Shown here piece by piece: positions 3,317-63,037 of a stretch of 64,000 bases of DNA; position 1 is the first letter of the stretch; each line of letters opens with the position of its first letter. The DNA lies in assembly GCA_021806235.1 (NCBI GenBank), contig JAJZXU010000026.1, forward strand, positions 62,001-126,000, in the 5' to 3' direction. This DNA is from Thermoplasmata archaeon (GTDB taxonomy: Archaea; Thermoplasmatota; Thermoplasmata; Thermoplasmatales; Thermoplasmataceae). The notes under the pieces are model-generated. The model was not told the origin of the DNA and searched no databases. It saw nothing but the letters and a program-made list of their open reading frames with translations. The position numbers and the translations under genes were made by a program.

Positions 3317-5011
3317 ATGGAAAAAAAAGAATATGATGCAGTTATTTTAGGAGGGGGACTCGCAGGTTTAATGGCAGCCAATATTGTTGCCTCTGCAGGT
3401 TTTTCCGTGGCAGTTGTCTCAAAGGTATTTCCCACAAGGTCGCATTCAGCCGCAGCCGAGGGGGGGATAGCGGCATATATAAAGGGTAATTCAGATCCAA
3501 ACGATGACCCAGATTTTATGTCATATGATGAGGTTAAGGGCGGTGATTATTTAGTAGATCAGGATGCTGCAGAATTATTATCTGCCAAATCCGGAGAAAT
3601 TGTCCACATTCTTGACGCGTGGGGTGCCCCTTTTAACAGGCAGCCGGATGGAAGAATAGCATTGAGATATTTTGGTGGGCAGACATATCCAAGAACAAGG
3701 TTTGTTGCTGATAAAACCGGTATGGCATTGCTGCATACATTATTCGAACACGCAACAGGATTTAAAAATATAGATTTTTATAATGAGTATTACGTTTTAG
3801 ATATAGTCAAGGAGGGAAAGGATGTAAATGGCCTTGTTGCAATGGAAATGAAAACAATGGATCCGGTATACCTGAAATCACGGGCATTATTGATAGCTGC
3901 CGGTGGACTGGGCATGTTGTATAAACATACAACAAACAGTTATATAAACACGGGCGATGGTTATGGCATAGCCCTGAGATCCGGTGTTGCGTTAAAAGAC
4001 CCGGAATTTGTCCAGTTTCATCCAACAGGCTTATATCCATCAGATATCTTAATAAGTGAGGCTGCAAGGGCAGAGGGGGGAATACTGAAAAATAATAAGG
4101 GAGAAAGGTTCATGGCAAGATATGCGCCGCATAAATTTGACCTTGCCCCAAGAGATATAGTATCAAGGTCAATGACAATTGAAATACGGGAAGGAAGAGG
4201 CTTTAAAGGTGGTTATTTAGGCCTTGATTTAACACATTTAGGTAAGGAATATATAATGGAAAGGCTGAGTTTAGCATATGACGCTGCTAAAACTTTTTCC
4301 GGTGTTGATGCCACAGAGGAGATGATTCCTGTAAGGCCAGCACAGCATTATTTCATGGGAGGAATAGATGTTGACATAACCGGATCAAACCATGATTTAA
4401 ACGGTATTTTTGCCGCCGGAGAGGCCGCCTGTGTTTCCGTTCATGGAGCTAACAGGTTGGGGTCTAATTCATTGCTTGAAACTTTAGTTTATGGAAGGGA
4501 AACCGGAGATTCAATGGTAAACTTTCTTAAAAGCCATAAAAATGTTGAATCAAACAGCAATGTTGATGATATTGTAAATACTGCGTATTTATATATAAAG
4601 AGGGAGAGTGGAGAGCATTTCGGCACATTACTGAACGAACTCAGGGATATAATGTGGGAAAATGTTGGTATTTTCAGGGATAAAAAGAAATTAGAAGAGG
4701 CAGTAGGGAAAATATCGGATTTAAGAAAAAGATCAGTAAATATGTATGTAACCGATAAAAGCAGTAATTATAACACAGAGGTTTTCAATGCCTTTGAAAC
4801 AAGGAATATGTTAGATGTGGCATTAGCCGTATCCTCAGCGGCACTGAATAGAAAGGAAACCAGGGGTGCACATTACAGGGATGATTATCCAAATAGGGAT
4901 GATGACAACTGGATGAAACATACAGTAGCATATCTTGGTGACAGTGAAATAAAAATATCCTATAAGCCCGTTAATTTCACAAGGTGGAAACCTGAACCGA
5001 GGGTGTATTAA
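3317..5011 (+). CDS. sdhA: Succinate dehydrogenase flavoprotein subunit
   Basis: The catalytic subunit of succinate:quinone reductase, oxidising succinate to fumarate on FAD. The dinucleotide-binding motif GGGLAG is at residues 12-17. His43 in [11 protein letters not shown] is the expected covalent FAD ligand. Substrate and FAD motifs HPTGLYP, ARAEGG and [11 protein letters not shown] follow, and the C-terminal capping domain ends near residue 564, a usual length. The motif [11 protein letters not shown] is intact, so activity is likely. GGTGAT at 3305-3310, six bases before the ATG, is a ribosome-binding site. The gene begins a tight four-gene unit: sdhB starts one base after its stop. Fumarate reductase is the same fold, but the aerobic cycle genes around it favour succinate oxidation. 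Confidence 0.95.
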
Positions 5012-14948: not shown

Positions 14949-15722
14949 TCACATTCCCGGTTTAACACCATCATATAATTTTAATGCTACCCCAAAAACT
15001 ATTACTGTTGCTATAGTTAATACTAAAAATTCAGATAAAACACCGCTCAGCGATGAAAAAACAAGGGTATTTCTTGTTATATTAGTTATATATGTTAGTG
15101 GGTTTGCATAGGATATAAGCCTTAAACCATACGGTGTTTTATCTGTAATTGGATAAAATGCAGAGCTTGTGAAATCAACAACAAAAAATAAAACAATAGT
15201 TATTGTATTATATGTCTGCATTTTCTTGGTTTTTATTGATATTATCAGATATATTGAGGTGAATATTATCGTACCGATAAACAGTGTTAATATTGAATAA
15301 ATAAGCCCTACCGTGGTAAATATCAACTTGCCGACAAACAGATAGAATATTACAAGCATTATTGCATTTCCTATTATGGAAAATATTAATGAAACCAGTA
15401 TTAACCCGAACAGGTATGATAGCCTGTTAAATGGGCCTACAAGCAGCTGTTCGAACATAAAAAATCTTCTATCTGACCACAGCATTGATCCGCCAACTGT
15501 TCCGGCGGTCATAACCTCCATAGCCATTATTCCCGGCATTAAAAAATCCGTGTATGATACATTTATATTATTGAAGGTTACGGCAGGGATTAAGGACTGA
15601 TACATAAAACCCAGTACAAGCAAATATAATGTGGGCAATCCTAACATAAACATTATTGTTCCTGGATCGCTATTAACCTTAAAATTCCTTATTGTTAACC
15701 TCAATGAATCCGGCAGCTTCAA
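14949..15722 (-). CDS. ABC-2 type transporter permease
   Basis: A 257-residue membrane protein with about six hydrophobic segments and the ABC-2 pattern, including GIMAMEVMTAGTVGGSMLWSD after the first extracytoplasmic loop and TDKTPYGLRLISYANPLTY near the end. The start codon is TTG at 15722 and overlaps the TGA stop of the ATPase gene. GAGGTGGTGAA directly upstream makes this start convincing. With the ATPase it forms a DrrAB-like exporter, probably for drugs, lipids or toxic organics. Confidence 0.9.
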   Translation of the reverse strand: MKLPDSLRLTIRNFKVNSDPGTIMFMLGLPTLYLLVLGFMYQSLIPAVTFNNINVSYTDFLMPGIMAMEVMTAGTVGGSMLWSDRRFFMFEQLLVGPFNRLSYLFGLILVSLIFSIIGNAIMLVIFYLFVGKLIFTTVGLIYSILTLFIGTIIFTSIYLIISIKTKKMQTYNTITIVLFFVVDFTSSAFYPITDKTPYGLRLISYANPLTYITNITRNTLVFSSLSGVLSEFLVLTIATVIVFGVALKLYDGVKPGM

Positions 15723-16633
15723 TTCACCACCTCAAAAAATACATCTTCCAGTGAGGATTGATCCATATTTAATTTTATAATATTATAACCATGCTTTTCT
15801 ACTGTTTTAATTATTTCAGGTATTATATTATCTATGTTCTTTGCCGTTATCAATAATTTATTATTTTCATTTTTTAAATTAACATTCATTGAAATCAATT
15901 CATTTTTTGTCAGGTCATCTATATCCCCATTTAAATCCAGTTTCAATGTTTTATAACCGCCAAAATTCTCTTTCAGATAACCAGAATTTCCCTCTATAAT
16001 CATCTTACCGGAATTTATTATGCCGATTCTATCACACAAATAATCGGCTTCCTCCATTATATGTGTTGTAAATAAGACTGTCAATCCATTCTTTGCCCTC
16101 ATTTTTATGTAATCCAGCAATTTCCTTCTCACTATTGGATCCATACCCACTGTTGGCTCATCCAGGAACAATAAATCCATGTCATGCAAAAATTCTCTTG
16201 CAACCTGAACCCTCTTTTTCTGTCCTCCAGAGAGATCCATTATATTGTTCTTTCTTACCTTATTTAAATCAAAAATTTCCATTAACTCTTCCATTCTTGA
16301 TTTTAACAATTCTTTTTTAACATTCCACAACAAACCATAAATTTTGAAATTTCTTTCAACCGATGTTAAATCGAATGACAGGTCCTGCTGTACAACACCT
16401 ATCCTTTTTCTTATATCCATTGAATTGTTTATATCAAGACCCAGAATCTTCACATTGCCGGATGTTTTTTTTATGAGCGTTGATAAAATCTTGATTGTTG
16501 TTGATTTTCCAGCACCATTTTTACCCAGTAATCCATAAATCTCTCCACTTTTAACATTAAAGGATATATCATCTACCGCATATTTTTTATTATCGTATGT
16601 TTTTCTTAAATTATTTACAGATATTGCATCCAT
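15719..16633 (-). CDS. ABC exporter ATP-binding protein (DrrA-like)
   Basis: Nucleotide-binding subunit of the exporter. Walker A GKNGAGKST, signature LSGGQKKR, Walker B LLFLDEPTVGMDP and the switch histidine in LFTTHIMEEAD are all intact. After the 220-residue ATPase core comes a C-terminal extension of about 80 residues, as in DrrA/NodI-type exporters. The ATG at 16633 is preceded by a TATA-like element at 16661-16670. Upstream of that is a perfect GC-rich dyad (16682-16699), which may be an operator. Confidence 0.92.
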   Translation of the reverse strand: MDAISVNNLRKTYDNKKYAVDDISFNVKSGEIYGLLGKNGAGKSTTIKILSTLIKKTSGNVKILGLDINNSMDIRKRIGVVQQDLSFDLTSVERNFKIYGLLWNVKKELLKSRMEELMEIFDLNKVRKNNIMDLSGGQKKRVQVAREFLHDMDLLFLDEPTVGMDPIVRRKLLDYIKMRAKNGLTVLFTTHIMEEADYLCDRIGIINSGKMIIEGNSGYLKENFGGYKTLKLDLNGDIDDLTKNELISMNVNLKNENNKLLITAKNIDNIIPEIIKTVEKHGYNIIKLNMDQSSLEDVFFEVVN

Positions 16634-18805: not shown

Positions 18806-20275
18806 CTATATTTGTTCTGTATTTTCCGTTGCTTCAGGCATTTTTTCCGATGCATTTTTAACGCCGTTTAAATTATTATGATCAAACATTTTTGTTATAT
18901 CCTCAACAGACTTTCCCTTTGTTTCAGGCATTATTATAAAGAACGTTACCGCGGCCATTACCGATAATATACCGAAAACTGCCATTGTGTAACCCAGGCC
19001 AATAGTTACATGCATTACAGGGAATATTTCAATTACTGCAAAATTGGATATCCAGTCGACAAAGGCTATTAAAGATGCATATAACCCCCTGTATCTTGTG
19101 GGGAAATATTCTCCCTGGATGATCCAGCCAGTACCCCCAACACCGAAAGCAAAGAATACTATAAACCCGGCAAAACCTATTAATAAACCCACATTTATAT
19201 GCAGCAGGTATAATGCCGTTCCAAGGAAATCAAAAAATGCCATGCCGGAGAAACCCAATAATGCCAGTGGTCTCCTTCCATAGGAATCTATTAACCTAAA
19301 ACCTATTAATGTTGCTACAACATTTATAATTGCCAGTATTGAAGAAGCCGCAATCGCAAATATTGCAGATGGCACAGCCGCCGTTGATGATGGTATTAAA
19401 TGTAAACTTGATATTACTGTGGGCCCATAATAAAATGGCACATTTATTCCGGTAATCTGCTGGAACATCATAAACAGACCAACTATGATAAATGCCCTTT
19501 TAATCCCCGGTGTTTCCCTTATTTTTTTATCCAGTGAAACCAAAAAATCATGGCTTCTTTTTAAATCTTCTTTTCCTGCATTTACACCCAATATTTTTAA
19601 TGCGCCAATAGCCCTATCATATTTTTCATGCAGTATTAACCATCTAGGTGATTCTGGCATATGAAATCTGTAAAACAGTCCAATAAATGACGGTATTGCC
19701 GCTACACCCAGCAATACTCTCCAGTCAACGACATAGGACAGTCCCGGTGCTATATAGAATATCAGCATTCCCATAATATATGCACCCATGATACCCCAGG
19801 TAATCATCCACTGCTGCATCATCGATAATTTCCCTCTTCTTTTAGCAGGGGCATATTCGGCTATGTACGCCGTTGCTATTGCGGAATCAGCACCCACTGC
19901 AATACCTATGAACGTCCTTGATATTAACAGCATTGCAAGGTTTATAGTTATTCCGGATAATACAGCGCCTATTGTATATATAAGTGCATCAGCGATTAAC
20001 AGGTACTTCCTTCCAAACCTATCCGTTAAAGCCGCCGCTATTAATGCACCTACAGCTGCACCTAAAGAGGCGCCTGCCACCAGATACCCTGTAATAAATG
20101 GGTTTAGATTTGATGAATAAAATGGTATAAATTCCAGTGCAGTCCCTATATTTGATGTATCATAACCAAACAAAAAACCACCCAGTGTAGCAAGTATTGT
20201 GATTGACCAGTAAAATTTATTTGTTATTTTTCCGTTCAGCTGGCTCAATATCGGATCATTATTTTCTGTCTCCAT
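18806..20275 (-). CDS. MFS sugar transporter
   Basis: A 489-residue protein with twelve predicted membrane segments. It bears the sugar-porter signatures DRFGRK after the second segment, PESPRWL before the central loop, and DSYGRRP and PETKGKS in the second half. The GYLVAGASLGAAVGAL segment and QQITGINVPFYYGP are typical of the sugar/H+ symporter family. The C-terminal tail is hydrophilic and acidic. Proton-coupled sugar uptake would suit an extreme acidophile with a large inward proton gradient. It is a single gene with a divergent promoter region on its right. Confidence 0.9.
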   Translation of the reverse strand: METENNDPILSQLNGKITNKFYWSITILATLGGFLFGYDTSNIGTALEFIPFYSSNLNPFITGYLVAGASLGAAVGALIAAALTDRFGRKYLLIADALIYTIGAVLSGITINLAMLLISRTFIGIAVGADSAIATAYIAEYAPAKRRGKLSMMQQWMITWGIMGAYIMGMLIFYIAPGLSYVVDWRVLLGVAAIPSFIGLFYRFHMPESPRWLILHEKYDRAIGALKILGVNAGKEDLKRSHDFLVSLDKKIRETPGIKRAFIIVGLFMMFQQITGINVPFYYGPTVISSLHLIPSSTAAVPSAIFAIAASSILAIINVVATLIGFRLIDSYGRRPLALLGFSGMAFFDFLGTALYLLHINVGLLIGFAGFIVFFAFGVGGTGWIIQGEYFPTRYRGLYASLIAFVDWISNFAVIEIFPVMHVTIGLGYTMAVFGILSVMAAVTFFIIMPETKGKSVEDITKMFDHNNLNGVKNASEKMPEATENTEQI

Positions 20276-20511: not shown

Positions 20512-20925
20512 ATGGAATTTAAGAGGGAAATAACAATAAATTGCGATAAAAATAGGCTGTGGGATTTAGTGAAGGACTATAAAAAAAGACCAGAATTCTG
20601 GCATGGAACGAGGTCTATAGAAAAAATAGATAATTTTTATTATATTCAGTTTGCTTTTCCCGGAAGGGGTAAAATGTCAATGGAAATAAACGATAATAAT
20701 TATACGATGAGAGAAGATTATTTAAAGGGCCCATTTACAGGATATATCACAACAAAAATAGAGGATAATGGTAAAATAAGGTTAATTTCTGAATGGAACA
20801 TAAAATTATCACCGTCATTAAAGTTATTTACAAAGAAATTGCAGGGACATTTTGAAACAGGTACAGAGGATGCCCTGAATAGAATAAAGAACTATCTGGA
20901 AGGTACATCAAACGTTAAATCATAA
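20512..20925 (+). CDS. SRPBCC (Bet v 1-like) domain protein
   Basis: A 137-residue protein of the START/Bet v 1-like SRPBCC fold. The N-terminus KREITINCDKNRLWDLVKDY is the typical first strand and helix, and the C-terminus ends in a long amphipathic helix (FETGTEDALNRIKNYL). These proteins bind hydrophobic ligands or act as cyclases or CoxG-like factors. No substrate can be inferred. The TATA-like sequence TTTATATAAAAG lies about 20-30 bases before the ATG. Its 3' end overlaps a small cysteine-rich frame on the opposite strand by 34 bases. Confidence 0.78.
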   Translation: MEFKREITINCDKNRLWDLVKDYKKRPEFWHGTRSIEKIDNFYYIQFAFPGRGKMSMEINDNNYTMREDYLKGPFTGYITTKIEDNGKIRLISEWNIKLSPSLKLFTKKLQGHFETGTEDALNRIKNYLEGTSNVKS

Positions 20926-21053: not shown

Positions 21054-21162
21054 ATTTTGATATCTTACAGTATTATTAAATATTTATTATACATTTTGCG
21101 CTAAAAACCTTTTATTAAACGCTGTTAAAAAAGGATATATACAATATTCACATGAAATATAT

Positions 21163-21975
21163 ATGAGAACATTAAAAATGTTTACCGGTGATGAAATAAC
21201 TATAAAGGACAATCTGGATAAAATTGTTTCTTTCAGTCCGGCTGTTACAGAAACCTTATTTCTATTAGGCCTTGGAGATAAAATAATTGCAGATTCGGCA
21301 TTCTGTGCAAGGCCCGATGAAGCTAAAAATAAAAGAAAACTTGCAAGTTATTCAACTACGAGAAACGATATACTGGCAAACCTGGATCCGGATATAATTT
21401 TAACGGTGAGTGGTTACCAGGAAAAACTTTTCAATAATTTAAGAGATTTTAACGCATACGTTTTTGAACTGCCCTCCTCAATGCATGGAATTTTAGATTT
21501 AATTTCCAGAGTAGGAATAGTTGTTAACAAAAAGGAAGAATCGAAGGAGCTTGAATACAGATTGATGGGATATGAAAAGAAGATAAATGTGAATAAATGG
21601 TATAAAACATATTTTGAAATAGATTTAGGTGGTCCTGTAACATTCGGGTCAATGAGTTATATTACCGACTCACTTTTTTTGATGGGTTTTGATACAATAT
21701 ACAGAGATTATGACAGTGAATGGGTTATGCCGGATTTTGATTATGTTAAAAAAATGAATCCTGATGTTATAATATACGAGCATAAGATGTATAGAAATTT
21801 TAATGAAAATGACATGGAAAATCTAATAAATAAAAGGGGCTGGAATAATATCAGTGCCGTTAAAAACAATAAAGTATATATCACACCGGGAAAACTGGAT
21901 TTTTTTGCACATCACGGGCCATCATTTTTCACGGATGTTATACCCTGGACAGTAAATATATATAATTCACTGTAA
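21163..21975 (+). CDS. BtuF-like periplasmic-binding-fold protein without signal peptide
   Basis: The 270-residue protein has the class III substrate-binding fold of cobalamin/iron-siderophore binding proteins. The first lobe carries DKIVSFSPAVTETLFLLGLG and NLDPDIILTVSGYQEKL; the second carries MNPDVIIYEHKMYRN and VYITPGKLDFFAHHGP. Such proteins normally have a lipoprotein or Sec signal and sit beside permease and ATPase genes. Here there is no hydrophobic N-terminus (it starts MRTLKMFTGDEITIKD) and no transporter gene nearby, so it is probably cytoplasmic. Roles in intracellular binding or trafficking of a corrinoid or metal complex are possible. The start codon fits an A/T-rich promoter. 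Confidence 0.82.
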   Translation: MRTLKMFTGDEITIKDNLDKIVSFSPAVTETLFLLGLGDKIIADSAFCARPDEAKNKRKLASYSTTRNDILANLDPDIILTVSGYQEKLFNNLRDFNAYVFELPSSMHGILDLISRVGIVVNKKEESKELEYRLMGYEKKINVNKWYKTYFEIDLGGPVTFGSMSYITDSLFLMGFDTIYRDYDSEWVMPDFDYVKKMNPDVIIYEHKMYRNFNENDMENLINKRGWNNISAVKNNKVYITPGKLDFFAHHGPSFFTDVIPWTVNIYNSL

Positions 21976-51108: not shown

Positions 51109-54100
51109 CTAATTTTTTAAGTTCATTTTTAAAAACAGTGTTTTTATTTCAAATGGGTTAAACTGAATTTTATTATCAGTTATGGCTTTTTGTTTATCTT
51201 CTAATATATCTGTCTCATAAATTTTTGTATTATTATTCTTTATCTCAGAATATGCTATTTTATCTGAAGAATTATAGAGCCTTGCTATAATTCCATTTTC
51301 ATTTTCTGATTTTTTTAGGCTTTCAAGTATTATTCTGTTATTTTCAAGTTCCATTAAATCCATAAATTTTCCTGTAATGTTTTTTCCATTTGAATTTTCG
51401 TTATGATACATCTCTATTCTATTAAATATAAAATTAGCATTTTTATATATATTAAACTCACCGGCATTATGCAAACAAACATAAAATTTTTCCTTAAATT
51501 CATATCTATCAGAAAATGGATTTGGGTATACTGGAAGCTTGGCAATACTGATACCCAGCCTTTTATTTATAAAACTATAACCGTGTGATTCTCTTGATAT
51601 TATTGAAAAACCACGCTCATTATTGTTATAATCCACCCATCTCAACGCAGGGAACTCAAAATGTGTTTTTTCATTTTGCCTATCTAACTTTGTGGATATA
51701 TTGCCAAACGGTATTTCCCTTTTAATAAATTCCGCATTAAAATCTGGCCAAAACAGTACCTTAACAAGTTTTTCCCTATTATTTAATTTAATCTTATTTT
51801 CAAATTCTATTATATCAGAATCTGGTTTTATTATAATGTTCTGCAAAATAATAGAATTGTCATCAAATATTTTTTTAATCTCTATTATCCCAATTATGTT
51901 TTTAGATATTATTTTAATTTCAGTCCTTTTACATTCCATATAGTTATCTTTAGCTATGTTTGCTTTGTTTATGTTCCACGCATCAAAATTTGCAGGTAGG
52001 TCATTATATATTCTAATTAAATTGCCTTTTTTAATAATTTTTTTATTAGAATAGAAGAATGACATGCTGCCATCTAAACTTATATTTAATTTTATTAGTC
52101 CATTATTTATCTCATACTGTTTATTTATATAATTTATTTCTACTTTGTTTTCATCGTTAATTCCATTTTTAGCATCTTCCTTAATATTTAAGAATCCAAA
52201 GCCAGGTATAGAACACTTTATAAATTTTCTATTTCCTGCATTAACTGATAGGCCTTTAAGCAAATTCCCATATATTTCTGGAATCTCAATATATCCATTG
52301 AAATCATACTGGCTAGTGTTTATGCCAATTACACCGTATTTTATATTTTTATTATTTGTAAGGCATTTTACTGACAAATCTATAATATTATCCAATTTTT
52401 TATTTAAATCCTCTAATTCTTTGTACATTTCAGCATAGGCATAAAGATATGCAGAACCGGGTAATATATCATGAAACTCGGCTTTTAAAAGTGTGTACCA
52501 TAAATCCTGCATATTTTTTTTCTTATAGGTAGACGGTGCGGAAATGTAGTTAATTGAATCTATAAAGTCCAGCATGTTGATTTTATCTTCTAACATGGCC
52601 ACATATTTTTTTATTTCAAAATTAGTAGTATAAACTCCACGATGATTTTCGAGATAAATTTCACCGTTGTATACTGGCATTTTATTTTTTAATTTTAATA
52701 AATTGTTTATATACATTTCTTCAGTAAATGTACTGATAATTTTAGGTAAAAATTTAACCTTTTTAATAGCATCAAGTTTGATCATCATCTCTATGTTTGG
52801 TCCACCACCGCCATCACCATAGCCATAAAGATATGTCATTGGAAGATCCTTATTTTTAAATATTTTCCATGAATTTATTATAGAATTAAAATTTAAGTCG
52901 CCATTATATGTAGAATTGACTATATTTGTAATAATTGATGTACCGTCTATTCCAGTCCATTGGAAGCAATGAAATGGAAATTCTGTTGTATCGTTCCACA
53001 TAGGTTTATGCGTTACAAATGATTCAATACCGGATTTAATAAATAACTGTGGCAGTTGACCAGAGAATCCAAAAGAATCTGGTAGCCATCCAATTTTAAC
53101 ATATTTTCCAAAATTTTCCATGAAATATTTCTGACCATATAGCAACTGGCGTGCTAATGATTCTCCTCTAACAAGATTGGTATCAGATTCTACCCACATA
53201 CCACCTACGGGTATCCATTTATTTTCCTTAATTAATTCCTTTATCTTATTAAAAATTTTAATATTGTTTTTTCCTATTTCATGATAGTATAATGCAGTAC
53301 TTTGTGCAAATGTAAAATTAAAACCCATATTATAAAGTTTTAGAACGTTTAAAAATGATCTTTCAATTTTTCTAGTGGTCTCTGAATAGGGCCATAGCCA
53401 TGCCACATCAATATGACAATGGCCGAAAATAAATATTTTATTGTCTGTACTGTCTATTTTAGATGCCACATTAAGGTTTATGATATTATTAATGTAATTA
53501 AAAATTTTATTATATTTGTTAGAATCTATATTTTTCATCTTAAAGTCGTCAATGTCGTTATTTAAAATTGGATACCCGTATACGTCAGATAAAAAATCGA
53601 CAGATTCAGGTTTGTCCTTTTCATTGCCCATTATACAATTTAGCCCAATGAACTGTTTCATATTTGGAGATTCAAAAACTCCGGATAGGACGCTAAACAT
53701 ATAATTTAAAATTTTATTTTTTGATTTCATTTCCAATGTAGTTACAAAATTATATAACTGCAATAATTCCATGCCAACCTTAAATAGATTATAATTTATT
53801 GTAAGTATGCATATAGAATTAATTTCCAGTGACCATGCATGTCTTCCGAATAATTCCCTTGTTCCTATATTTAGTATAAACTTGTTTGCAGGGTTATCAA
53901 ACATAGTATAATTATGGCCAGCGTCTATAGCTTGATCTGGTATGCCATCAATTATGATTTCTGCGTTTCCAGATATATCTGCAGACAATAGATATTTAAA
54001 ATTGTGATCCAGTTTATCCAAATTAACTCCAAAGGAGAATGTTTTGATTTTATCCGGTGCCTGGATAGTTTTGTATGGTATACTTATAAGGCCATTTTCA

Positions 54101-54195
54101 GATTGAATTTCATTTATATTTTTTATATCTATAATGCTTAACGATATTATTTCATATATTTTTCTAAATATTACCGGCTCTAAATCGCTTTTCAT
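51109..54195 (-). CDS. Alpha-mannosidase, GH38
   Basis: A 1028-residue glycoside hydrolase of family 38. The N-terminal catalytic domain has GHCHIDVAWLWP at 258-269 (zinc-binding His and Asp), the nucleophile Asp338 in GGMWVESDTN, and WLPDSFGFSGQLPQLF. The large C-terminal beta-sandwich region follows. There is no signal peptide, so it is intracellular and probably trims oligomannosides or glycoprotein sugars. The start at 54195 is preceded by TTTAAATT-type promoter sequence. It is a single gene, downstream of the sugar-transport remnants and facing them. Confidence 0.93.
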   Translation of the reverse strand: MKSDLEPVIFRKIYEIISLSIIDIKNINEIQSENGLISIPYKTIQAPDKIKTFSFGVNLDKLDHNFKYLLSADISGNAEIIIDGIPDQAIDAGHNYTMFDNPANKFILNIGTRELFGRHAWSLEINSICILTINYNLFKVGMELLQLYNFVTTLEMKSKNKILNYMFSVLSGVFESPNMKQFIGLNCIMGNEKDKPESVDFLSDVYGYPILNNDIDDFKMKNIDSNKYNKIFNYINNIINLNVASKIDSTDNKIFIFGHCHIDVAWLWPYSETTRKIERSFLNVLKLYNMGFNFTFAQSTALYYHEIGKNNIKIFNKIKELIKENKWIPVGGMWVESDTNLVRGESLARQLLYGQKYFMENFGKYVKIGWLPDSFGFSGQLPQLFIKSGIESFVTHKPMWNDTTEFPFHCFQWTGIDGTSIITNIVNSTYNGDLNFNSIINSWKIFKNKDLPMTYLYGYGDGGGGPNIEMMIKLDAIKKVKFLPKIISTFTEEMYINNLLKLKNKMPVYNGEIYLENHRGVYTTNFEIKKYVAMLEDKINMLDFIDSINYISAPSTYKKKNMQDLWYTLLKAEFHDILPGSAYLYAYAEMYKELEDLNKKLDNIIDLSVKCLTNNKNIKYGVIGINTSQYDFNGYIEIPEIYGNLLKGLSVNAGNRKFIKCSIPGFGFLNIKEDAKNGINDENKVEINYINKQYEINNGLIKLNISLDGSMSFFYSNKKIIKKGNLIRIYNDLPANFDAWNINKANIAKDNYMECKRTEIKIISKNIIGIIEIKKIFDDNSIILQNIIIKPDSDIIEFENKIKLNNREKLVKVLFWPDFNAEFIKREIPFGNISTKLDRQNEKTHFEFPALRWVDYNNNERGFSIISRESHGYSFINKRLGISIAKLPVYPNPFSDRYEFKEKFYVCLHNAGEFNIYKNANFIFNRIEMYHNENSNGKNITGKFMDLMELENNRIILESLKKSENENGIIARLYNSSDKIAYSEIKNNNTKIYETDILEDKQKAITDNKIQFNPFEIKTLFLKMNLKN

Positions 54196-56172: not shown

Positions 56173-57732
56173 ATGGAAAACAATCCTGATATAAAACCAA
56201 AAAGTAAGTTATTGACTTATATAGTTATTGTTATTATGATAGCCGCAATTGTTGGAGGAGGTGTAGTATATTACTATTCTACTATACACAAATCATCAAC
56301 AGAAACAATCTCAATTGCTGCTCCTACATATTATAGTTCATCATCTACATGGGAAAATTTCGTTAATAATGCCACAAAAAGTTGGCAAGCGGCCCACCCA
56401 AACGTAAAAATTAAATTTATCGGTCCGTTTGGAGCAAGTAGCGAAGGAAATTATTATACCAAATTGGACCTTTTAACATCTTCAAAATCTACTGCCCCAT
56501 CGGTCATGTTAGAAGATATGTTCTACACGGCGACATATCAGCATGAGGGTATATTAGCCCCATTAAACTCATATGTTAATTCCAGTTTCTTTTCTAATAC
56601 ATACTCTTCTGCTCTAGGTCAAATGACAGTAAATGGAACACATTATGGCCTGCCAGCTACGGTTACTGATACTTTAATCTATTATAACATAAGTTTACTT
56701 CAGAAGGCTGGTGTTCTATCTTCCGGTAATACAACATGGCAGCCAACAAATTGGACACAGATTATGAATGCCGCACAGAAAGTAAATTCAACATCAACAC
56801 TTGCTGGTGTTACTCCACTGAATATTTATGAGGGTGTAAGAGCAGATGAAGCCTCTTCATTCACCGGATTTGAGGGGCTTTTATATGGAACAGGGCACGG
56901 TCTTTATAACTTCACAAATCATAAATGGTATGGAAATAATCCCGGATTAAATGAAACATTACATTTCTACAAAACAGCATTTTCAAAGAAATATGCCACT
57001 TCAGCCTTAAGTAGCACACCCTATGTAACCGTTGGACAATATATGCAAAAAGGAAAATTGGCAATAGGCATAGACGGAAGCTGGATGTATGGCTATCAAT
57101 GGGCACCAGGTGCCCAAAACCCCATAAACAATTTCAGCAAATATATAGGCGTAGCAAAAATACCCACCATAAACGGTGGCGGAAATGGATTTAACACAAT
57201 GGTAGGTGGCTGGGGATGGGCTATGTATAATAACATACCCACGTCGGAAAAACCTCTGGTTGCGTCCTTTATGATGGCATTAGATAACACATCAAATCAG
57301 ATTTTAGTAAATGAACCACACAATGGATTAGCAGGTGGTCTGCCAACCGCAAAAAGCGCAGTCAATAATCCCGGCTTCTCAAAGCTTGTGCCCGGGGCTT
57401 CATATTTGGACACATTTTATGCTAAGCTATTAAAATATGGTAGCTACAGGCCTCCAGTTTCAGGATACCCAACCGTATCATCTGCATTACAAACAGCAAT
57501 GAGTGATGTGGTTTCTGGACATGAAAGCGTATCAAGTGCATTAAGTGCATACGATTCTACCCTTGTAAGCAGTTTTGGTGCAAGTCATGTGCAAAAGATG
57601 TCCGGTAGCTCGCCCAGTATACAGCCATCACCAGCATACTCCAATTATCAGAGCAACAAAAATATACAAACTTTCTTCTACGGATATTTTACTGACACGT
57701 CTATTTTTACTTATAATTACATATTTTGGTGA
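56173..57732 (+). CDS. Sugar ABC transporter, substrate-binding protein
   Basis: A 519-residue extracytoplasmic binding protein anchored by an N-terminal segment at about 14-37 (LTYIVIVIMIAAIVGGGVVYYY). The mature part is rich in Ser, Thr, Asn and Tyr and has the family 1 binding-protein plan: an early WENFVNNATKSWQAAHPNVK, then GLPATVTDTLIYYNISLL and a later VGGWGWAMYNNIPTSEKP. The last 40 residues after the linker (SGSSPSIQPSPAYS) are unusual, ending in an aromatic run FFYGYFTDTSIFTYNYIFW. Another frame there reads as a more normal membrane anchor, so a small frame error at the end is possible. It is the first gene of a four-gene importer operon. Confidence 0.88.
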   Translation: MENNPDIKPKSKLLTYIVIVIMIAAIVGGGVVYYYSTIHKSSTETISIAAPTYYSSSSTWENFVNNATKSWQAAHPNVKIKFIGPFGASSEGNYYTKLDLLTSSKSTAPSVMLEDMFYTATYQHEGILAPLNSYVNSSFFSNTYSSALGQMTVNGTHYGLPATVTDTLIYYNISLLQKAGVLSSGNTTWQPTNWTQIMNAAQKVNSTSTLAGVTPLNIYEGVRADEASSFTGFEGLLYGTGHGLYNFTNHKWYGNNPGLNETLHFYKTAFSKKYATSALSSTPYVTVGQYMQKGKLAIGIDGSWMYGYQWAPGAQNPINNFSKYIGVAKIPTINGGGNGFNTMVGGWGWAMYNNIPTSEKPLVASFMMALDNTSNQILVNEPHNGLAGGLPTAKSAVNNPGFSKLVPGASYLDTFYAKLLKYGSYRPPVSGYPTVSSALQTAMSDVVSGHESVSSALSAYDSTLVSSFGASHVQKMSGSSPSIQPSPAYSNYQSNKNIQTFFYGYFTDTSIFTYNYIFW

Positions 57733-57738
57733 AATGTT

Positions 57739-58629
57739 ATGCAAACTGCGATAAATAGAAAGCTTAATTTCAAAAAAAATGCCATATTTTTAATTTTAAT
57801 ACCAACATTTATTTATTTGATTATATTTTTTATTTATCCAATATATCTATCATTTAAATATTCATTTACCAACATATCATTATATGATATTAGCCATTAC
57901 ACTTATATAGGATTTAGCAACTATGTAGATTTATTTAAAAGCCATGGTTTTCAAAACTCGCTGTACATTACACTATTATTTCTTTTAGTGTCTGCTATAT
58001 TTGGCCAGATGTTCTTGGGCTCAATTATTGCATATTTACTAACAATTACACAAAAATATTTCAAATTAATTGTTACAACAATAATATTGATTGCGTGGGC
58101 AACACCCCAGGTTACTGCCGGTATAATGTGGTACAGTACATTAAGTTATATCCCTACGGGCACAATAAATTTTTTCTTAAGTTCATTTGGTTTTAAATCA
58201 ATTAATTTTTTATCTACAAAAACAGCAATATATTCAATAATGCTTGCAAATATATGGATTGGCCTTGGTTTTTCTATTCTAATATTCCTGGGTGGCATTC
58301 AAAATATTAATCCCAGTATTATTAAGGCATCATATATGGATGGCACTAAACCCTTTACAAGATTTTTTGCTATAATATTTCCACTTTTAAAGAAGAGTAT
58401 TATAACTGATCTTTTATTGATTACGCTATTTACTTTAGGCACATTTACATTAATATACGTTTTAACTGCCGGTGGTCCGGCAGGTTCTACAAATTTATTG
58501 ACAATATATCAATATCATACCGCTTTTTCTTTGTTTTCATTGGGTTTTGCAAATGCCATTGGTGTGATAATAATATTAATAGCTATAGTATTATCTACTA
58601 TCTATTTAAGATTTATAAAGGTGGAATAA
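57739..58629 (+). CDS. Sugar ABC transporter permease (MalF-like)
   Basis: A 296-residue permease with six membrane segments. The EAA-type loop is IKASYMDGTKPFTRFFAIIFPLL, in which the usual EAA is replaced by KAS while the following DG is kept. It follows the binding-protein gene after six bases; GGTGA at 57729-57733 is its ribosome-binding site, which overlaps the upstream stop codon. It is the first of two permease genes in the operon. Confidence 0.92.
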   Translation: MQTAINRKLNFKKNAIFLILIPTFIYLIIFFIYPIYLSFKYSFTNISLYDISHYTYIGFSNYVDLFKSHGFQNSLYITLLFLLVSAIFGQMFLGSIIAYLLTITQKYFKLIVTTIILIAWATPQVTAGIMWYSTLSYIPTGTINFFLSSFGFKSINFLSTKTAIYSIMLANIWIGLGFSILIFLGGIQNINPSIIKASYMDGTKPFTRFFAIIFPLLKKSIITDLLLITLFTLGTFTLIYVLTAGGPAGSTNLLTIYQYHTAFSLFSLGFANAIGVIIILIAIVLSTIYLRFIKVE

Positions 58630-59436
58630 ATGAAAATAACTAAAATATTAACATATACAGTTTTAACGTTACTGGCTGCAATATTTATCGTGCCATTTAT
58701 ATGGTTGATAGTTGAAAGTTTTAGTCCGGTTAGTGATCTTGGCTTTGTTATACCATCACATTTTACACTGGCACCCTTTTACAAGGTTTTAACCAACCAT
58801 GAATTTATTAATTCAATTTATGAGGGTTTAATACAATCATTCGGTGGTACTCTCATATCAGTAATGTTTTCTATAGGTCCAGCATATATTTTTTCAAGAA
58901 AAAAATTTAAATTAAGACTTTATTTGCTATTAAGTATTTTATTTCTAACGGGTTTCCCCGTATTTTCATTATTAATACCAGAATATATATTCTATATAAA
59001 AATTTCATTATATAATACTCTTATTGGTGACATATTATTTTTAGGTGTATTAAACGTACCAATAGATATATGGATCCTTAAGAATTCATTTGATCAAATA
59101 CCACAGAGTATAGAAAGAGCAGCGTTTATGGATGGTGCTTCAAGTATAAAATCATTGTTTTATGTTTTTTTGCCTCTTGCATTACCTATTGTATCAGTAT
59201 TAATCATATTAAATTTCGTCGTTAACTGGGGCAATTTCTATGTACCATTCATTCTCTTATCTTCAAACCATCTACTGCCAATAGCTGTAGAAATTTACAG
59301 TTTTTTTGGTACGTTTAATGTAAGATACAATGAACTTGCAGCATTCTCTATAATATATACAATACCCGCAATAATACTTTACATGTTTTCTCAGAAATAT
59401 ATGATAAAAGCATTATCAGGCGGTATAAAAGGGTGA
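58630..59436 (+). CDS. Sugar ABC transporter permease (MalG-like)
   Basis: A 268-residue permease with six segments. The EAA loop IERAAFMDGASSIKSLFYVFLPLALP is well conserved. The ATG lies directly after the upstream stop, behind AGGTGGA, so translation is coupled. It pairs with the preceding permease to form the membrane channel of the importer. Substrate is unknown; glucosides or maltodextrins would fit the neighbouring glycosidases. Confidence 0.93.
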   Translation: MKITKILTYTVLTLLAAIFIVPFIWLIVESFSPVSDLGFVIPSHFTLAPFYKVLTNHEFINSIYEGLIQSFGGTLISVMFSIGPAYIFSRKKFKLRLYLLLSILFLTGFPVFSLLIPEYIFYIKISLYNTLIGDILFLGVLNVPIDIWILKNSFDQIPQSIERAAFMDGASSIKSLFYVFLPLALPIVSVLIILNFVVNWGNFYVPFILLSSNHLLPIAVEIYSFFGTFNVRYNELAAFSIIYTIPAIILYMFSQKYMIKALSGGIKG

Positions 59437-59442
59437 AAAAAA

Positions 59443-60507
59443 ATGGCCAGTGTTGAATTAAAAAAAGTTGTCAAAAATTTCGGTAAAGTTAATGTGTTAA
59501 AGGATTTAAGTCTTCATGTAAATGATGAGGAGTTTTTTGTTTTGCTTGGAGCTAGTGGAGCAGGTAAATCAACGACGCTGGATATTATATCCGGTCTTGA
59601 TACTATAGATGGGGGTGAAATTTTATTTGATGGTTCTGTTGTGAATAACCAGGGTCCAATAGAAAGAGGCGTTTCAATGGTATTCCAGAATTATGCATTA
59701 TATCCTCATATGACAGTTTACAAAAATATAGCCTTTCCACTTAAGATGTTAAACTATAGAAAGGAAAGAATTCCGGAGATAGTTAAGGAGGTGGCACAAA
59801 AATTAGATATTATCCCATTGCTGGACAGATACCCAAAAGAACTATCTGGTGGTCAGGCCCAAAGGGTAGCACTTGCCAGGTCTCTTGTGAGAAACCCTAA
59901 AATATTTTTGCTTGATGAGCCCTTAAGTAACCTTGATGCAAACATACGGTCTAAAATAAGGAATGAATTAAAATTAATGCATAAAAATTTAGGAAAAACG
60001 TTTATATATGTTACCCATGACCAGTTAGAAGCAATGTCGTTGGCAGATCATATGGGCATTTTGCATAATGGTGTTATAGAACAGGTAGGGAGACCAATAG
60101 ATATATACAGGCACCCACATAATGATTATATAGCGAGTTTCCTGGGGGATCCTGAAATAAACATGTTTTCATATACGGGCAATAACGGGACATATAAATC
60201 TGACGATTCACCCTTTATCTTTAAAATGGAGAATGAGCATAAAAAAATAACGGTGGGTATAAGACCAGAAGATATTTACATAAAAAAAGAAAACCAGGAT
60301 GATATAGAGGGTACAGTAATCCCAAAAACTATAGAATTGTTAGGTTCACACTCTCTTATAATTGGAGAGACCCAGTCTAAGAAGGAAATAAAAATTATAA
60401 CATATATTAATGGCACTGACATTGATATCGGAAAACCCCTAAAAGTTTTTACTAATATGGAAAATTGGAACATTTTCGATGAAAACGGTACAAACATTAA
60501 TAAATAA
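59443..60507 (+). CDS. Sugar ABC transporter ATP-binding protein (MalK/MsmX-like)
   Basis: A 354-residue ATPase with Walker A GASGAGKST, signature LSGGQAQR, Walker B IFLLDEPLSNLDA and the switch in THDQLEA. The C-terminal TOBE-type regulatory domain includes VGIRPEDIYI, as in carbohydrate importers. GGGTGA before the ATG is the ribosome-binding site and overlaps the upstream stop. It closes the importer operon and overlaps an opposing gene by 11 bases at its end. Confidence 0.93.
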   Translation: MASVELKKVVKNFGKVNVLKDLSLHVNDEEFFVLLGASGAGKSTTLDIISGLDTIDGGEILFDGSVVNNQGPIERGVSMVFQNYALYPHMTVYKNIAFPLKMLNYRKERIPEIVKEVAQKLDIIPLLDRYPKELSGGQAQRVALARSLVRNPKIFLLDEPLSNLDANIRSKIRNELKLMHKNLGKTFIYVTHDQLEAMSLADHMGILHNGVIEQVGRPIDIYRHPHNDYIASFLGDPEINMFSYTGNNGTYKSDDSPFIFKMENEHKKITVGIRPEDIYIKKENQDDIEGTVIPKTIELLGSHSLIIGETQSKKEIKIITYINGTDIDIGKPLKVFTNMENWNIFDENGTNINK

Positions 60508-61171: not shown

Positions 61172-63037
61172 TTAAAAGAAAATAATTTCATAATCCAATG
61201 GATAGTTGCTGTTTATATTTTTTCCATCAAATTCTATTTTTATTTCCTTATTATCCCTGTACATTATTAACTCTGATTTGCCAAAAACAATTAATTTGTT
61301 GTTTATAATTAGCATCGAATTATTTTTAAGATATAGTGGATACTTTTCATCGGTTGTAATATATTTACTGCCAGAAATCACAGAGAAATCATTTATATTT
61401 AGCCATTTCCCGGAGGGAATATATAGTTTCCTATCTTTTCCATAGATCTGGGGGGCATACAGTAAACTACCCAAAATATATTCATCATTTATATAATATG
61501 CATCCATATCCGTATGATCATAGTAAAATAATGGTTTAACAACGGGGAAGCCATACAAATGCGATTCGTATATTACTGAGTAAATATAATCAATTAAACC
61601 ATATCTTTTGTTTATAGAATCAATTATTTCATTTCTGTATAATTCAGGTAATTTATATAATTCCTGGTCATTTGAATACATATCCTTATGATTTCTATAA
61701 AAGGGAAATAATAATGCCATTTTATAATATTTTGATATTAATTCCGGTGACGATTGCCCTACAAATCCACCTAAATCACATCCACACACGCTTATTCCGG
61801 ATAAGTTTAAGGATATTACCATGGAAATCTGTAATTTTAGATCATCCTCACCTGATGTATTATCTCCTGTCCATATTGCGGCATATTTCTGAATTCCAGC
61901 ATAACCGGATCTTGATACTATGAATGTATCGTTTTTTTCTTCACTGATTGCCTCATATGTAGCTTTTACCTCAAAATATGCATATGCATTGTGCAGATAC
62001 TTATGTTTTACTTTACTGCCATTTATATTATGCAATGCTTCAGGGTCAATAGTTTTAAATTCGTTGAATAATGCTGGCTCATTCATATCAAGCCATATGC
62101 CATCTGTGTTATTTATAAAATTTTTGATTTCTACTTTCCACCAGTTATACGCTTCTTCATTGAAAAAATCTGGCATTGCAGAATTTCCCGGCCACAATTT
62201 TGATGTGTATATTTCATCATTATTATTTTCCACATAATGGCCTATACCATTTTTAAACACACTATAATTCTGATCCAGTTTAACTCCCGGGTCAATTATT
62301 GTTACCAGTTTTACATCTCTTTTATGTAAATTATCCAGTAACCTTTTATTATCAGGAAATTTGTTCCTGTCAAATGTAAATATTTTAAATTTATCCATGT
62401 AATCTATATCCAGATATATAGCAGAAATATCTGTATATTTTTTATAATTATCTATTACATTATAAACTTCATCCTCCGGATAATAACTATACCTTGATAT
62501 CTGGTGTCCAAGTGCCCATAAAGGGGGCATAAAGGTTTTCCCGGTTAAGCCGGTATAATATCTGTATAAGTCATCAAAATTATCAGGTTCAAAAATATAC
62601 ACGGTTGATGATTTATTATATATTTTTACTGTTAATTTATCATATTCCTCTATCCCTATATCGATATCTATCCTTGATGTTGAATTTATAAATATGCCCT
62701 TTATATTTTCGGAAACAGAAATTAAAAATGGTATCGATAAATATAACGGGTCATCATGTCTTTTATAACCCACGGGATCTGAATTATACATTGTGAAACT
62801 ATGCCTGTTTTTCAATATATCAGAGGCTTTTTCTCCCAGTCCGATAATCTTTTCGTCCTGTTTCAATTTTTTCTTTATTATTATATACTGATTTTCCTCA
62901 TTATAATTAATATCCAAATCCGTATTCTGATTATTTTCCTCTAAATTAGCATCATCAAAATTTATCAGTGGCCTATCATTATTTATTGTAACCTTTTTAT
63001 AATCATGCCCTGACATGATTTTTATCTCTGGCTTCAT
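61172..63037 (-). CDS. Alpha-glucosidase, GH31
   Basis: A 621-residue retaining glycosidase. The nucleophile is Asp317 in GIWLDMNEPALF and the acid/base is Asp392 in WTGDNTSGEDD. FLISVSENIKGIFINSTSR and GLGEKASDILKN mark the N-terminal domain, with the C-terminal domain shorter than in some relatives. There is no signal peptide, so it is intracellular and probably cleaves maltose-type or isomaltose-type oligosaccharides brought in by the importer next door. A TATA-like run at 63051-63070 lies before the start. Confidence 0.93.
   Translation of the reverse strand: MKPEIKIMSGHDYKKVTINNDRPLINFDDANLEENNQNTDLDINYNEENQYIIIKKKLKQDEKIIGLGEKASDILKNRHSFTMYNSDPVGYKRHDDPLYLSIPFLISVSENIKGIFINSTSRIDIDIGIEEYDKLTVKIYNKSSTVYIFEPDNFDDLYRYYTGLTGKTFMPPLWALGHQISRYSYYPEDEVYNVIDNYKKYTDISAIYLDIDYMDKFKIFTFDRNKFPDNKRLLDNLHKRDVKLVTIIDPGVKLDQNYSVFKNGIGHYVENNNDEIYTSKLWPGNSAMPDFFNEEAYNWWKVEIKNFINNTDGIWLDMNEPALFNEFKTIDPEALHNINGSKVKHKYLHNAYAYFEVKATYEAISEEKNDTFIVSRSGYAGIQKYAAIWTGDNTSGEDDLKLQISMVISLNLSGISVCGCDLGGFVGQSSPELISKYYKMALLFPFYRNHKDMYSNDQELYKLPELYRNEIIDSINKRYGLIDYIYSVIYESHLYGFPVVKPLFYYDHTDMDAYYINDEYILGSLLYAPQIYGKDRKLYIPSGKWLNINDFSVISGSKYITTDEKYPLYLKNNSMLIINNKLIVFGKSELIMYRDNKEIKIEFDGKNINSNYPLDYEIIFF

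Follow-up and report, generated by a model that had tools for sequence, protein, structure and literature searches.

Among the closest described relatives of the protein considered here are the class III binding proteins (PF01497) of FecCD/BtuCD importers, which are extracytoplasmic, carry a signal peptide or a lipoprotein or membrane anchor, and are accompanied by a cognate FecCD permease in the genome. The binding-protein fold has a cytoplasmic precedent in the PBP domain of the regulator Btr, and chelatases also resemble that fold. For BtuF, the portion of PMC5269720 drawn upon here describes six residues that contact corrinoids (Y50, W66, W196, W85, F162 and F168), while the corresponding portion of PMC3741162 describes docking on BtuC via two glutamates, numbered below as E72 and E202 according to the E. 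coli BtuF sequence (that text prints 74/202). A group of proteins without signal peptides, from marine-type Thermoplasmatota and bacteria, is described by the NCBIfam model NF038402 as 'helical backbone metal receptor' (TroA_like). No study of a signal-less BtuF-like archaeal protein was recognised in those parts of the literature that were searched.

The gene and its family

A gene for a protein of this superfamily, here termed the ‘orphan’ together with its orthologues, lies within a 64,000-nucleotide stretch of an archaeal contig (the window). The gene and the sequence directly preceding it are:

21163-21975, + strand: signal-less Peripla_BP_2 protein of 270 amino acids (open reading frame, profile match and predicted model)
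21058-21162, + strand: TGA stop in the same frame (21058-21060), after which 34 codons stay open with no possible start among them

The encoded protein (P0001) belongs to the PF01497 (Peripla_BP_2) superfamily, with a match (2.6e-30, 106 bits) that exceeds the curated cut-off of 27.5. Its AlphaFold2 model (pLDDT 94.5, pTM 0.91) resembles BtuF of both V. cholerae (5ysc; E 2.3e-16 in the Foldseek / VIA-align comparison) and E. coli (1n4a; Z 23.1, rmsd 2.3, 237 aligned), so that the corrinoid/iron-complex binding fold named in the original prediction is borne out by the profile match and a confidently predicted fold. The best sequence matches in the PDB are proteins that bind iron, heme or B12, and the nearest NCBIfam models (IsdE, PGF-CTERM binding protein and BtuF) all score far below their cut-offs.

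Orthologues, defined within a set of 61 genomes as proteins scoring >200 bits, are found in 37 of those genomes, and dN/dS, at 0.11 and 0.09 in comparisons with two close orthologues, indicates purifying selection; this distribution and constraint place the reading frame far from chance. In a midpoint-rooted tree of 66 of 76 rows (from which eight near-duplicate orphans, L003 and Halomonas L143 were left out), the 33 orphans form a single clade with support of 100/100. A phylum-wide sample of 389 genomes contains an orphan-type match in 31 (347-431 bits, the next score being 112 bits), of which 30 come from two families (f1 and f3) of the order to which the window belongs. The remaining genome (G341) belongs to another order, where it is alone among 106 genomes in carrying the orphan, and its copy adjoins a reading frame that by eye looks TnpB-like; transfer, or else contamination, may account for this case. 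A scan of viral sequences found no relative.

The alignment of 29 orphan sequences contains 39 invariant columns, among them columns within the following segments:

21223-21252, + strand: strand-loop IVSFSPAVTE, with I21, S23, P26, T29 and E30 invariant in the alignment
21301-21315, + strand: N-lobe cleft motif F47-C48-x-R50-P51, F47 aligning with BtuF Y50
21346-21351, + strand: S62-Y63, Y63 aligning with BtuF W66
21616-21666, + strand: C-lobe cleft motif E152-x-D154-L-G-G-P-V-x-F161-G-x-x-S-Y-I
21718-21723, + strand: E186-W187, W187 aligning with BtuF W196
21778-21789, + strand: E206-x-K208-M209
21883-21924, + strand: cleft motif TPG-x-x-D246-F-F-A-H250-H251-G-P-S

Each of the invariant motifs (SPxxTE, FCxRP, SY, LP, ExDL..FGxxSYI, EW, ExKM and TPGxxDFFAHHGP) follows a predicted strand, and their residues, many of them charged, would occupy the loops that follow the strands bordering the inter-lobe cleft, a placement read from predicted strand order rather than from coordinates. 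Such conservation suggests that every member uses this cleft to bind the same specific ligand.

Absence of an export signal

The original prediction had read the beginning of the protein as hydrophilic and devoid of a signal peptide, and had recognised that a different start further upstream might supply one. Neither ATG, GTG nor TTG was found in the 34 codons between the TGA at 21058-21060 and the ATG at 21163, and close orthologues carry in-frame stops before their own ATG, either just 5' of it (the 97%-identical protein of genome G002, locus L074) or two codons 5' of it (the 84%-identical protein of genome G005, locus L039). No upstream start can therefore add a signal peptide, and a missed start was rejected as an explanation. 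A TATA-like AT-rich stretch is located approximately 25 nt 5' of the ATG, and the sequence suggests that the transcript is leaderless or nearly so.

The N-termini of the orthologues were compared using the maximal 15-residue Kyte-Doolittle mean within the first 50 residues, a heuristic rather than a trained predictor, with the longest possible start taken for every orthologue. All 37 (the window's included) gave values of at most 1.93 and hence display no hydrophobic N-terminus, as compared with 2.75-3.47 for 12 secreted paralogues drawn from the weaker matches in the 61 genomes, every one of which begins with such a segment. The lack of a hydrophobic N-terminus thus holds across the family: signal-less relatives are present in other archaea, and the opposing outcome, in which all homologues are secreted, did not occur. 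P0001 itself has neither the signal peptide nor the lipoprotein or membrane anchor of an importer's class III binding protein.

Separation from transporters

The original prediction further stated that no permease or ATPase gene was nearby. The window does contain several transporter genes:

14949-16633: ABC-2 exporter pair
18806-20275: sugar-type MFS carrier
56173-60507: sugar-type ABC importer

None of these is a FecCD-type importer of the kind that pairs with the BtuF fold, so the statement calls for a qualification. A search of the whole genome (G000; 1.93 Mb, 99% complete) found no FecCD permease, and the orphan is its only PF01497 protein. Positive controls for the PF01497 and FecCD searches were found in 13 of 14 named genomes in each search. 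The sugar-type importer lies, together with a GH38 mannosidase and a GH31 glycosidase (51109-54195 and 61172-63037), in a region of the window that appears devoted to sugar use.

FecCD is likewise absent from four further orphan genomes (G002, G005 and G026, which like G000 are 97-99% complete, and G033, at 81%). The remaining 32 carry a FecCD permease elsewhere in the genome, and a hand comparison never found it on the orphan's contig at a distance of 100 kb or less. Within the window's genus (10 genomes), three carry the orphan without FecCD, four carry FecCD without the orphan, and three carry neither.

A similar separation is visible at the positions corresponding to the docking glutamates of BtuF. 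Glutamate occupies both in 2 of 41 orphans, as opposed to 12 of the 15 homologues that are secreted (rows not being independent, Fisher p 6.5e-8). Glutamate is found at the E72 position in 27 of 41 orphans versus 14 of 15 secreted homologues, and at the E202 position in 4 of 41 versus 12 of 15; because the E72 position is still acidic in 36 of 41 orphans, the loss lies mainly at E202 and is only partial at E72. The window protein has aspartate at both.

These observations bear on the reading in which the orphan is an ordinary extracytoplasmic binding protein of an ABC importer, its signal having been missed or replaced by another export route and its permease being shared at a distance. The occurrence of a FecCD permease somewhere in 32 of 37 orphan genomes would fit such an arrangement; nevertheless, none of the 37 orthologues has a start codon from which a signal could be translated, four orphan genomes of at least 97% completeness are without any FecCD, and the docking glutamates are not retained as a pair, all of which renders it highly improbable. 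Taken together, the missing signal, the missing link to FecCD and the loss of the docking pair point instead to a conserved, transporter-independent and presumably cytoplasmic subfamily of the BtuF fold.

Candidate ligands

A corrinoid had been suggested as one possible ligand, and the evidence for that suggestion is divided. Each of 41 orphans has an aromatic residue at the positions of BtuF Y50, W66 and W196 (F47, Y63 and W187 in the orphan), and none has one at those of W85, F162 and F168, the last of which is aromatic in 13 of the 15 secreted homologues. Many of the invariant residues in the orphan's cleft are charged, which also weighs against a corrinoid. The NCBIfam equivalog for BtuF (NF002894) gives P0001 30.6 bits against a cut-off of 234. 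The cobalamin adenosyltransferase PduO is encoded in 31 of 31 orphan genomes of the phylum-wide sample, versus 167 of the 358 others, and in 35 of 37 orphan genomes of the nearer set, versus 9 of 24 that lack the orphan (the two orphan genomes without a PduO match being 79% and 84% complete); this co-occurrence follows phylogeny, and is thus confounded and not strong. The B12 enzymes methylmalonyl-CoA mutase (57 of 61 genomes) and NrdJ (58 of 61) do not track the orphan. No B12-metabolism gene was seen beside the orphan among the neighbours examined, some of which were Pfam-scanned. The suggestion thus finds indirect support in PduO and three retained contact aromatics, and is weakened by the three that are lost and by enzymes that do not follow the gene. 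As a separate observation, f4 and f5 genomes of the window's order encode methylmalonyl-CoA mutase and NrdJ in the absence of a PduO-type adenosyltransferase.

One gene for corrin synthesis was located outside the window on the same contig:

G000:C14:52227-52784: CbiC gene, approximately 31 kb from the orphan and approximately 10 kb before the window start

Its presence indicates that the window's archaeon probably makes corrins de novo. CbiC is found in 15 of the 61 genomes, and most orphan genomes are without it, which argues that de novo corrin synthesis does not take place in them. That distribution speaks against one further reading, in which the orphan is an enzyme (for example chelatase-like or hydrolytic) built on the binding-protein fold. 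The resemblance between chelatases and this fold would suit an enzyme, as would the 39 invariant residues, which include many of the kinds used in catalysis (Cys, His, Glu, Asp and Lys), but all 50 of the structural matches listed for P0001 are binding proteins, and catalysis appears improbable.

A second reading retains a cytoplasmic carrier, sensor or store, and assigns to it another metal complex, such as heme, siroheme, a ferric chelate or a bare metal ion. Structural matches to the heme binder 2r7a (Z 23.9) and the siderophore binders HtsA (3li2; Z 23.5) and CeuE (Z 22.8) are tied with those to BtuF; the invariant C48, E152, D154, E186, E206, D246, H250 and H251 could ligate a metal; and NF049932, the model for the Btr PBP domain, is among those listed for a distant relative that lacks a signal. 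Set against these points, the orphan has no fused DNA-binding domain, and the neighbours examined included no gene connected with heme, siderophores or metals. Such a ligand is possible, though it is regarded as rather doubtful.

We tentatively prefer the interpretation that a class III binding fold has become a cytoplasmic, transporter-independent ligand binder in Thermoplasmata-type archaea, with a corrinoid as a candidate ligand. In this scheme an extracytoplasmic solute-binding fold would have been converted to a ligand-binding protein that functions inside the cell without a transporter; its ligand would most likely be a metal complex built around a large planar ring, for which a corrinoid offers a provisional first guess; and the protein may buffer that corrinoid intracellularly or pass it on, for instance to PduO once it has been made or taken up. 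A more specific form, which is conceivable though less than likely, holds that the orphans are a distinct family in which a former extracellular catcher now serves as an intracellular carrier of corrinoids or metal tetrapyrroles, handing them to PduO or exchanging them with an MFS carrier. Little is known about how corrinoids and other reactive metal cofactors move within archaeal cells, and a conserved binder without export signal or transporter provides a testable candidate for their handling; it also illustrates that the label 'ABC substrate-binding protein' can mislead as to location and role.

Gene neighbourhood

The gene that precedes the orphan in the window probably lies outside its system:

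20512-20925, + strand: gene for 137 amino acids, with a weak polyketide-cyclase-like match below the Pfam cut-off

It is separated from the orphan by 237 nt and adjoins it in 3 of 37 loci, all in the window's genus. In 12 loci the orphan is preceded on its own strand by an MFS gene, which adjoins it in 10 of them (gaps of -17 to 79 nt), and in six the gene immediately before it is DsrE-like, so that one or both are found in 16 of 37. This arrangement would suit a partnership in which the cytoplasmic protein receives a ligand from, or presents it to, a secondary transporter; yet 21 loci, including that of the window, have neither gene, and the other neighbours vary with lineage, which leaves this partnership unlikely. 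Those lineage-specific neighbours comprise Ssb-like (15 of 37) and DNA-ligase (13 of 37) genes downstream, as well as eRF1-like and ScpA-like genes (the latter named by eye).

Comparison with known systems

Several signal-less members of the superfamily are found outside the orphan clade. A ‘cobalamin-binding protein’ group (L113-L115, Methylobacterium WP_244533785.1 and Ideonella L138) forms a separate branch of the tree, and does not have the C48, D154, E206, K208, H250 and H251 of the orphan. The distant relative L120 (3234-4073), directly upstream of PduO (about 4083-4616), and L138 (3983-4804), clustered with the B12 enzyme IcmF, both belong to another branch; their placement beside B12 genes speaks for a corrinoid. 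Bacterial signal-less binding proteins at L131:5010-5810 and L138:3983-4804 are encoded near acyl-CoA genes. Binding proteins of Deinococcus and Vitreoscilla encoded beside cobalamin genes were rejected as support, since both start with a signal-like stretch, and a Marinobacter protein was not counted as signal-less because a permease adjoins its gene.

The NF038402 proteins are nearer, and the orphan represents a further variant of such already known signal-less forms. They are the sister of the orphan clade in the midpoint-rooted tree with moderate support (93/78), and share with it the absence of a signal and a cysteine at the C48 position (7 of 7 rows). They differ in having no E-x-DL, E-x-KM or AHHGP motif; P0001 scores 21.4 bits with their model, below its cut-off of 30, while the divergent orphan-clade member L122 passes at 35.4. 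In other Thermoplasmatota, NF038402-type proteins are encoded beside an isoleucyl-tRNA-synthetase-like gene identified by eye (L123:3116-3880, L118:3371-4135 and L119:3177-3974).

The secreted, FecCD-linked binding proteins of the same archaea belong to the same superfamily, at approximately 20-30% identity to the orphan, and are distinguished from it by a hydrophobic N-terminus, a FecCD gene nearby and retained docking glutamates. BtuF itself differs from the orphan in possessing a signal peptide, the BtuCD transporter, the docking pair and three further contact aromatics, and the orphan has a charged C-lobe cleft; the two proteins nonetheless share their fold over the whole length, together with three of the six aromatic positions through which BtuF contacts corrinoids.
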